From Ruegeria atlantica (GTDB taxonomy: Bacteria; Pseudomonadota; Alphaproteobacteria; Rhodobacterales; Rhodobacteraceae), in NCBI RefSeq assembly GCF_013032505.1, contig NZ_WQCG01000001.1, positions 1,240,001 to 1,304,000 of the forward strand: a DNA stretch of 64,000 bases. Reading direction: 5' to 3'. This document shows, piece by piece, positions 4,696-6,929 of the stretch (the stretch's first letter is position 1; each line of letters starts with the position of its first letter). The notes beneath the pieces are model-generated. The model saw nothing but the letters and a program-made list of their open reading frames with translations. It made no database searches and had not been told where the DNA came from. The position numbers were made by a program, and so were the translations under genes.

Positions 4696-5511
4696 TCAGT
4701 TGATGATGGATTCTGTCACTTCGGTGCCGCGGCGGACCCGAATAATCGTTTTGCGAACCGGTTCTTTGATGTCCCGCGCGACGGCTGGTTCATCAATCAG
4801 AAGATCGTTCAGTCGAGTCATGGTCAGCGTCTTGTCCTCGGTGTCATCAATGGACCGCAAGGTCAGGCTCAGCCGACCGGCACGTTGCGCCAGAGCAAGG
4901 CGCTGAACTTGATCCGGGGTAACGGCGACGGTGACCGTGCGAGCAACAACGGGTTGGTCGGTCTGTTCATCAGATTCCTGATCAACACCGATGACCCTGA
5001 TATTTTGCAAAATGGTGACGGCGTGCATGTCTCTTTTTTCGCCAGTGGTCATCACCACATCGACCCGATCACCCGGGGTAACAAAACCCCCAACGGCGGT
5101 TTCAGCGTCAACCTCAATGGCCATGGCGCGATGATCTGCGCCCAGCGTCTGAACGATGGTGACCTTTTCACCAAAGTCGGAAACCTTGCTGTTCAGGATC
5201 AGTTCACCCTGAGTAATTGCTCGACGAGCGCGACGGGACGGCATGCTAGCCGCCGCAATCAGGTCGTCATAATCTGTAAAGACTCCCACGGGTACAGCAC
5301 CGCGGGGCCAGTCAATGGTTGTCAGCGCGCCTGGCTCGATTTCTTCGCCAAACGAAATATCGCGCGACGCAACGACCACGCTCACCATCTCGCTCTCGGC
5401 CTCGACATTTGCGGACTGAGTATCGAATTGAATGTAATCCCGAGCGACGTAAACCGACCCTCCGGCTACGACCAGGCCCGTCAATGCTGTGAAAATGGCA
5501 GAGAGTCTCAT
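4696..5511 (-). CDS. cpaB: Flp pilus assembly protein CpaB/RcpC
   Basis: 271 residues. An N-terminal signal or anchor (FTALTGLVVAGGSVYVA) is followed by a SAF domain (VVVASRDISFGEEIEPGALT), the hallmark of CpaB/RcpC, and a second RcpC/CpaB domain containing the TPGDRVDVVMT motif. CpaB is a periplasmic partner of the outer-membrane secretin RcpA/CpaC. The start at 5511 was chosen because AAGGAG lies eight bases upstream and the hydrophobic segment then begins immediately; a longer frame to 5586 adds 25 hydrophilic residues and has no site. No secretin gene follows, which is unusual (see findings). Confidence 0.9.
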   Translation of the reverse strand: MRLSAIFTALTGLVVAGGSVYVARDYIQFDTQSANVEAESEMVSVVVASRDISFGEEIEPGALTTIDWPRGAVPVGVFTDYDDLIAAASMPSRRARRAITQGELILNSKVSDFGEKVTIVQTLGADHRAMAIEVDAETAVGGFVTPGDRVDVVMTTGEKRDMHAVTILQNIRVIGVDQESDEQTDQPVVARTVTVAVTPDQVQRLALAQRAGRLSLTLRSIDDTEDKTLTMTRLNDLLIDEPAVARDIKEPVRKTIIRVRRGTEVTESIIN

Positions 5512-5653
5512 CTGGTGCTCCTTCAGCTTTTTTTGGCGTTTATCGAATGAACCGATCTGAGCGGTTGCACTTTGCCAGCGGATCAAGAAAATATTCCGGG
5601 ACGATAAGCACGCGGGGCTGAGCGCACCGCGTGCTTTGTCTTCCGTCAGGTCA

Positions 5654-5824
5654 TTACATCAGGGTTTCAGCGTCTGTGAACTGACCGTTAACGTCGTTGC
5701 CCAACGCTGTCAGGGTAGCAACTGCAATCGCCGTGACGATTGTCAGGGCAACGCCATATTCCACAATGGTCGCGCCGTTTTCGTCACGTGCCATGGTCTT
5801 CATCATTACATAAAGCTTCAACAT
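5654..5824 (-). CDS. flp: Flp family type IVb major pilin
   Basis: 56 residues. The prepilin signature is textbook: a short charged leader (MARDENG), cleavage after Gly17, then ATIVEYGVAL with Glu at +5 and Tyr at +6 of the mature protein and an Ala/Val/Thr hydrophobic helix. This matches Flp pilins, which are cut and methylated by a TadV/CpaA peptidase (not in this window) and polymerise into bundled fibres. GGAG stands seven bases before the ATG. It is the first gene of the minus-strand tad block; cpaB starts about 140 bases downstream, leaving room for a terminator or attenuator between the abundant pilin and the machinery genes. Confidence 0.92.
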   Translation of the reverse strand: MLKLYVMMKTMARDENGATIVEYGVALTIVTAIAVATLTALGNDVNGQFTDAETLM

Positions 5825-6141
5825 CTTACTCTCCTAGTTAACTCACTAGCTACTCATGGATGCCGCCCAAATTCGCGGCGTTCTAACCCCCTCCATACCG
5901 ACGGAGCCTTCCACAAGCTTAGGTCCCGCCATCAGGGCACCGCATCCTCCAAACCACGGAGAAATACACGCCAGGATTGTAAAATTTGGCAGCTTGGTCG
6001 ATTCTTTGTCGCAAATTTGCCTGATTCCTTACCGGAATCCGAATGGCCAGATTCCTGATTCTTTCCCAACTGACGGGCCGCCAATTCCGGTGCCAAGCTG
6101 CTTTGCTGCACAAATGGACTGAAGGATTCACTTCATGAATC
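5825..6141. promoter_or_regulatory. flp upstream region with a cluster of GANTC sites
   Basis: About 300 bases without a supported gene. It must carry the flp promoter on the minus strand. Seven GANTC sequences (CcrM methylation sites in alphaproteobacteria) start at 6000, 6023, 6035, 6050, 6057, 6125 and 6137. Some are arranged as inverted repeats: GATTCC-5-GGAATC at 6023-6039 and GGATTCA-5-TGAATCC at 6124-6142. A small hairpin (GCCGC/GCGGC, 5862-5879) lies in the flp leader. The last two sites may belong to the neighbouring insertion-sequence remnant. Confidence 0.5.
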
Positions 6142-6142
6142 C
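6124..6142. repeat. Perfect 7-bp inverted repeat near the IS remnant edge
   Basis: GGATTCA and TGAATCC separated by five bases. It lies just before the region where transposase similarity begins, so it may be part of the original insertion-sequence end or its promoter region. No matching copy was seen on the right side of the remnant. Confidence 0.35.
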
Positions 6143-6149
6143 AGAACGA

Positions 6150-6929
6150 TAGCTGAGAGGTACGACCAGTTGGGCCCGGACGAAGCACAAGACCGGGAAA
6201 AGCCTTCGTACAATACCGCAATGAAAAAACTAGGATCGCTCTCGATCTGGTTTGATCCTGAGATGGATTGGACATCGCTACCTTCAGGCAAGCGCGGCAG
6301 TCACCAGAGTTTCAGCGACTCCGAAATCCAAGCGTGTCTGACCCTGAAGGTTTTGTTCGGGATGACGCTGAGGCAAACCACGGACTTCGTGAGCAGTCTC
6401 CTGCGGCTGATTGGCTTGGACTGTGCCATGCCTGATTTCAGTACACTGTGCCGCCGTCAAAGAACGCTGAACGTGAGCCTTCCGTATCGTGGTGGGAAGC
6501 GGCCCGCTGCATCTGCTGATCGACATCACCGGCATCAAATCCGAGGGCGAAGGAGAATGGAATGCCCGCAAGCATGGTAGCCCCAAGCGAAACATTTGGC
6601 GTAGAAAACGCATAGGCTTCGACGAGGAAACGCTGGAAGTGCGCGCCGTTGAAGGTATCACAAGCAACGTCTGAGACGCGCCAATGTTGCCCGAGTTGCT
6701 TGATCAAATACCTCCAGGTCACAACTTTGGGGCAGTGAGCGCAGACGGGGCATACGACACGCGCAAGTGCCACGGCGCGATTGCCGCCCACAAGGCCCAC
6801 GCCATCATCCCGACACGCAAGAACGTCAAGTCATGGAATCCCACATTTGCCGGTGCCATTGCCCGAAATGAGACGGTCAATGCATCTCGATACCTGGGCC
6901 GCGCCATCTGGAAACTGTGGAGCGGGTAA
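6150..6929 (+). pseudogene. Decayed IS5-family transposase
   Basis: The translated fragments match the IS5-type DDE transposase common in Rhodobacteraceae: SLSIWFDPEMDW, QACLTLKVLFGMTLRQT, then LHLLIDITGIKSEGEGEWN and VSADGAYDTRKCH. The gene is broken three times. A single extra base near 6500 shifts the frame (aagCggcccg). A TGA at 6672-6674 interrupts the reading after ITSNV. Similarity stops at GRAIWKLWSG, so the C-terminal part with the final catalytic Glu region (usually RSRVETKMH) is missing. The start of similarity is only approximate. It lies between the tad locus and the amino-sugar genes and cannot encode an active transposase. Confidence 0.85.

Follow-up and report, generated by a model that had tools for sequence, protein, structure and literature searches.

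The seven-site GANTC cluster and its setting

The window analysed here, a 64-kb stretch of Ruegeria DNA, contains a dense cluster of GANTC sites upstream of a flp pilin gene. After flp come cpaB, a gene with a Tad domain and one for a CpaE/MinD-like ATPase, the last below its curated cut-offs. The flp product matches Flp_Fap with an E value of 1.4e-6 and 28.4 bits, under the curated cut-off of 32.2. The features discussed below are the following (negative numbers are distances upstream of the flp start):

4696-5586, minus strand: cpaB/rcpC, next gene of the Tad cluster (TIGR03177, 212 bits; RcpC)
5654-5824, minus strand: flp, encoding a 56-aa pilin, downstream of the cluster (Flp_Fap)
5825-5988, minus strand: conserved flp leader and presumed core promoter region, -1 to -164 (five-genome comparison)
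6000-6004, no strand: native GANTC at -180, kept in four of five genomes
6023-6027, no strand: native GANTC at -203, arm of the dyad 6023-6039, kept in four of five genomes
6035-6039, no strand: native GANTC at -215, arm of the dyad 6023-6039, kept in all five genomes
6050-6054, no strand: native GANTC at -230, kept in four of five genomes, once as GATTC instead of GAATC
6057-6061, no strand: native GANTC at -237, kept in all five genomes and aligning with the site of loci L006 and L007
6099-6929, plus strand: remnant of an IS5-family (IS903-like) element with broken transposase frames at 6170-6580, 6489-6674 and 6684-6929
6125-6129, no strand: GANTC inside the IS, at left-end position 27 (alignment to IS copies)
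6137-6141, no strand: GANTC inside the IS, at left-end position 39 (alignment to IS copies)

A motif scan of the window placed the seven sites of the cluster at 6000, 6023, 6035, 6050, 6057, 6125 and 6137, exactly where a first-pass annotation had listed them, each being GATTC or GAATC and five of them falling within 62 bases (6000-6061), as that annotation had also stated. They lie 180-317 bp upstream of the flp start (given there as about 175-320 bases), and the inverted repeats described there in part are two GATTC-N7-GAATC dyads, at 6023-6039 and 6125-6141. The assumed background of about one GANTC per 256 bases was too high, as this genome avoids the word: the window has 140 sites where shuffles predict 299, and contig C1 has 2312 (1.56 per kb) where base composition predicts 5597. 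The excess of the cluster over chance is even stronger than had been claimed, this being the densest spot in the 2.284 Mb scanned, which correspond to about 45% of the 5.12-Mb Ruegeria genome (1,484,000 of 1,484,760 bases of C1, 680,000 of 756,539 of C23 and 120,000 of 201,142 of C29). Only here did the scan find at least five GANTC in 62 bp and, likewise, at least six in 150 bp; the chance expectation of such clusters on C1 is 0.01 under uniform placement and 0.0036 with the intergenic GANTC rate. The two dyads share an identical design and are 102 bp apart. C1 has only three copies of GATTC-N7-GAATC, of which this cluster accounts for two, and a genome-wide regulon built on this dyad was rejected.

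The cluster is composite, made of five native flp-upstream sites and two IS-borne ones. The IS starts at about 6099-6100 and most matches to other Ruegeria copies begin at 6100 or 6101, so that the sites at 6125 and 6137 are IS DNA, which bears out the earlier suggestion that an IS boundary contributes the last two sites. The transposase matches DDE_Tnp_1_5 (E 6.5e-29) and, with its broken frame, reaches 105 bits with NF033579, below the cut-off of 140, and the GGCTTTGTTG-type terminal repeats fit the IS903-like group of the IS5 family. We did not find the right end of the remnant. Among 13 copies with a located right end, the 9-bp target duplication is exact in one (L147), 8/9 in another (L149) and not seen in the other 11. 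In the four genomes that retain the insertion, the two IS sites are kept in six of eight instances, and the pair in this decaying remnant probably plays no part in flp control. Around the cluster, no Rfam element was matched at E<=1 in 5400-6600, flp leader included, and no sigma70 consensus on the flp strand in 5600-6250; a plasmid-borne source of the flp region or of the Flp protein was discarded, neither having a match in the plasmid collection.

Conservation of the sites upstream of flp

The 276 bp of flp upstream DNA that end at the IS start are 90-94% identical in four other Ruegeria genomes and, used as a query, match in 7 of 54 genomes of the genus, always beside flp. In one of the close relatives (L003) all five native sites are present without the IS903-like element, and the other three carry five, four and three of them. 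The comparison with relatives that the first-pass annotation had proposed reveals a five-site cluster common to related Ruegeria genomes. Over the five genomes, 22 of 25 native site-instances are kept, where permutation of the variable columns leads one to expect 18.6 (P=0.059); the site cores contain 4 variable columns out of 20 and the other positions 26 out of 73 (Fisher P=0.15), and the cluster stretch as a whole is more variable (31 of 98 columns) than the flp leader (23 of 164). Conservation of the array beyond that of its surroundings is thus marginal, and these alignments are suggestive only. Four more distant loci with the same flp type were also compared: three of them (L006, L007 and L190) have one GANTC at -233 to -238, to which L006 adds another at -194, and the fourth (L067, a close second flp copy in another Ruegeria) has no GANTC in the array region. 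Five sites together occur in a single Ruegeria lineage, whose members carry three to five GANTC; the array, as judged from these alignments, is a lineage-specific elaboration with at most a putative role of its own (P=0.06). The extended word YGAKTCG is not matched exactly by any of the five native sites of the window.

More widely, we compared flp upstream regions from a discovery set of 64 loci, reduced to 53 by removals and to 40 by clustering (L162, L165 and L171 were removed for odd length; L013, L023, L170, L172, L177, L164, L182 and L009 as downstream tandem, duplicate, short or lacking a start codon), and from a later set of 40 further loci, one of which had been seen before (L271 = L162) and nine more of which came from genomes or a genus seen earlier and were left out in a recount. 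Start codons and gene calls in all counts followed simple ORF rules. In the discovery set, GANTC occurs in the bin -240 to -210 at 16 of 40 loci and in other bins at 0 to 8. The interval -255 to -205 was fixed after the discovery set had been seen; in it, GAATC ranks first for enrichment among 454 five-mers (17 of 40 loci against 3.3 expected), as does CGAATC among 1035 six-mers (10 against 1.1). The recurrent form is YGATTCG on either strand, both orientations occurring. It is found in this interval at 10 of 40 discovery loci, against 10 of 360 in other bins, and at 8 of 40 later loci, against 5 of 360; leaving out the locus seen before gives 7 of 39 (P 1.2e-6) and strict exclusion 5 of 30 (P 1.9e-5), P values that treat the loci as independent and are optimistic because flp loci are related. 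Plain GANTC is present in the interval at 19 of 40 discovery and 14 of 40 later loci, the later figure being a modest rise, with two other bins at 12 and 11 of 40, so that the extended word carries the signal; under strict exclusion, plain GANTC is at 10 of 30 (P 0.005), a count reached by another bin as well.

Pooling both sets, YGATTCG occurs in the interval at 18 of 80 flp loci and GANTC at 33, which leaves 62 without the former and 47 without any of the latter. By comparison, among 234 other genes of the same genome with long noncoding upstream DNA, the interval contains YGATTCG at one and GANTC at 22, the highest other bin of these genes having 4 and 35, respectively. A neutral background was rejected on the density of the cluster and on this control. 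Of the 80 flp loci, 16 have at least two GANTC in -270 to -170, and three other intervals of the upstream DNA reach 7, 4 and 1: small GANTC clusters recur at flp, and the five of Ruegeria are the extreme. Lack of conservation in relatives, which had been put forward as evidence against the first-pass proposal, is not what we observed, since a GANTC at this distance, mostly as YGATTCG, recurs above background across Roseobacteraceae. These counts show statistically that a GANTC, often within YGATTCG, 205-255 bp upstream is a recurrent, positionally constrained part of putative Roseobacteraceae pilin promoters. Of 27 sites at the discovery loci, 25 have A or T as the central N, and neither GASTC (2 of 39) nor YGAGTCG (2 of 40 discovery and none of 40 later loci) is enriched at flp; the real constraint may therefore be a reader of the longer word.

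GANTC pairs at IS903-like left ends

The two IS-borne sites belong to a pattern separate from the flp array and perhaps more general. We aligned 24 Ruegeria left ends, this copy and 23 others out of 30 loci, seven of them from a single genome (G013), leaving out L131-L133 (one insertion) and L145, L149 and L151 (no left-end match): 22 have a GANTC near position 27, 19 near position 39, and 18 have both. Among the best copies of each of 30 genera, the site near 27 is present in 27, the one near 39 in 25 and both in 23, although these were the best-scoring copies among 122 genomes with a match and, since the query itself carries the pair, the sampling favours copies that have it. Four of the sites kept in these 30 copies differ only at N (two GACTC and two GAGTC). 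Likewise, 21 full-length copies contain 36 GANTC in their first 50 bp and 17 in the rest, against 2 and 178, respectively, for GATC; all such copies are non-independent because IS move between hosts.

Thirteen plasmid copies of IS903-like elements were also compared. In the copies from Leisingera, Paracoccus seriniphilus and Pseudosulfitobacter (the last with an uncertain right end), the sole GANTC sites are at 26-27 and 38-39; the copies from Phaeobacter and Paracoccus yeei have one GANTC site. Three Escherichia or Salmonella copies carry instead GATC at 39 and 44, which are their sole GATC sites in two cases (the third has one more at 234), and in the Vibrio and Shewanella copies GATC stands at 43 and 48, Vibrio having a further one at 940. 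Neither word occurs in the first 100 bp of two copies from Acinetobacter, a genus not known to have Dam. One Enterobacter copy has no clear left end. Dam is reported to act on promoter GATC sites of IS10, IS50 and IS903 (PMC9296519). The Rhodobacterales elements resemble Dam-controlled IS903 in IS family, in similar terminal repeats and in a pair of adenine-methylation words restricted to the transposase end, but differ in that the words are GANTC, the target of CcrM, at 27 and 39 rather than GATC at 39 and 44. By this analogy, the simplest and most likely reading is that CcrM takes the role of Dam for Rhodobacterales IS903-like elements, a dyad-binding protein being the rival candidate as reader of the pair.

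Candidate readers and rival explanations

The CcrM setting evoked by the first-pass annotation does exist here: the genome encodes CcrM (best PDB match CcrMI, 6pbd, E 4e-170, with a RAMA domain) and also GcrA (7ye1, E 2e-36; PF07750). In Caulobacter, according to PMC7987155, YGAKTCG is the extended motif of GcrA-activated methylated promoters and the GcrA targets include cpaB, cpaD, cpaE and cpaF; the same study states that neither this motif nor GcrA regulation of cpa genes was seen in Brevundimonas. The situation here resembles the sigma70 promoters controlled by GcrA and CcrM in Caulobacter crescentus in several respects, namely an intergenic GANTC word with identical flanks, the presence of both proteins, and pilus genes among the known targets (PMC7987155). 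It differs in that the T form alone is enriched, in both orientations and placed by start codon instead of transcription start site, and in that the five sites of the window lack the full extended word. In the 2.284 Mb scanned, YGATTCG lies between genes in a larger share of cases than other GAWTC words do (28 of 152 against 239 of 2244, P 0.004), with intergenic copies upstream of gcrA (C23:212555) and three upstream of rpoD. The rpoD and gcrA words suggest a small GcrA-type regulon; other intergenic copies precede CarD-type, IHF/HU-type, NusG, response-regulator and ordinary metabolic genes. The three copies before the sigma70 gene rpoD are contained in 42 bp (C1:739948-739989 of this genome; L094). 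Another copy (C1:744203; L095) precedes a second TadE/G-like gene, which has a VWA domain, by 73 bp, and a divergently oriented glutamate dehydrogenase gene by 61 bp.

We favour control of flp by GcrA and CcrM, at roughly even chances given these comparisons. The combined proposal, that CcrM and GcrA tie flp to replication via the native sites and that the IS pair does for CcrM hosts what GATC does for Dam hosts, has in our judgement a chance just short of even. CcrM would methylate the native GANTC sites upstream of flp, the passage of the replication fork would leave them hemimethylated, and GcrA with sigma70 would read this state, so that flp transcription would be tied to replication; the extra sites of the array might add methylation-dependent binding or lengthen the hemimethylated period. 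The IS pair, for its part, would couple transposase expression or transposition to replication, as GATC does under Dam. Methylation-linked control of flp is partly supported, having comparative backing at the family level, and is unproven. We consider it possible, with somewhat lower than even chances, that CcrM is a replication clock for two unrelated users in Roseobacteraceae, the flp promoters (through YGATTCG about 230 bp upstream) and the IS903-like elements.

Another DNA-binding regulator could read YGATTCG or the GATTC dyads, the overlap with the CcrM word GANTC being incidental. The near-exclusive A or T at the central N (25 of 27 discovery sites), the lack of enrichment of GASTC and YGAGTCG, even if the Caulobacter motif permits G, and the GATTC-N7-GAATC dyad in the window would all fit such a protein. 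However, YGATTCG is one form of the published GcrA motif and has intergenic copies upstream of gcrA and rpoD, and the native dyad shows no genome-wide enrichment (two of the three on C1 are in this cluster). We rate such a regulator as an unlikely, if credible, reader. A single functional element accompanied by an array that is mere neutral drift in a fast-changing spacer would explain why the array is found in one lineage only, with marginal conservation (P=0.059), a variability above that of the leader, and the exact YGAKTCG lost; it would explain less well a cluster of which 0.004-0.01 are expected on C1, a site changed only at N, and the recurrence of small clusters (at least two GANTC at 16 of 80 flp loci). 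We rate drift of this kind, too, as rather improbable.

Two further explanations have very little in their favour. Occlusion by a MucR-type protein, which would keep the cluster unmethylated, has a precedent in the Caulobacter P169 promoter, which has four GANTC and is bound by MucR (PMC5172544). P169 is alike in grouping several GANTC in one promoter but is shielded by MucR, and we found no ROS_MUCR (PF05443) match in the Ruegeria genome with a search that did match the Caulobacter control, so that this explanation was rejected as highly improbable. Derivation of the whole cluster from the IS or from an older IS end, which had been named as an observation that would speak against the first-pass proposal, is correct for the sites at 6125 and 6137 and refuted for the five native ones. 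The native and IS dyads are 72% alike and a full-window scan with an IS-end profile lists 6005-6041 at -1.5 bits (E 59), but a direct test of the native stretch with this profile gave no match (43 of 2000 shuffles match), L003 has the five sites without this IS, and the upstream query lies beside flp in all seven matching genomes of the genus; the chance that all seven sites have an IS origin is close to nil.

DNA replication may thus set the timing of pilus synthesis as well as of transposition. A major role of methylation timing in Rhodobacterales has been doubted because only 45% of their ctrA promoters have a GANTC (PMC8116508). A GcrA-type word whose position upstream of pilin genes is conserved would offer a concrete target for this question, with a bearing on how marine bacteria attach to surfaces. 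The IS pair leads to the prediction that CcrM gates transposition in these hosts, as Dam does in enterobacteria, and would, if this is true, mean that one IS design is tuned to whichever orphan adenine methyltransferase the host uses. We found neither the YGATTCG element upstream of flp nor the IS GANTC pair reported in open-licence PMC papers.

A second class of Ruegeria flp loci (L010, L011, L014-L016, L020 and L028), read by eye, has at about -225 to -190 the sequence ATTGTTTCC, then GATTCG, then TTAA-N7-TTAA boxes, whose spacing we take to be that of a CtrA-type box. This class may represent a compact, putative CtrA-type plus GANTC promoter; TTAA-N7-TTAA anywhere upstream was found at 3 of 40 later flp loci. 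CtrA and LexA sites have been predicted at the Dinoroseobacter Tad locus (PMC6473078). In Caulobacter, pilA likewise encodes a pilin controlled by the cell cycle and has a promoter with several regulatory sites (PMC11264516); in pilA these are CtrA sites, whereas the array of the window is made of GANTC, with no TTAA-N7-TTAA seen upstream of flp. Lastly, where the window has the IS903-like remnant, L003 carries, about 280-520 bp upstream of its flp gene, what by eye resembles a piece of another transposase, so that insertions may be especially frequent at this border of the Tad cluster, a possible hot spot.
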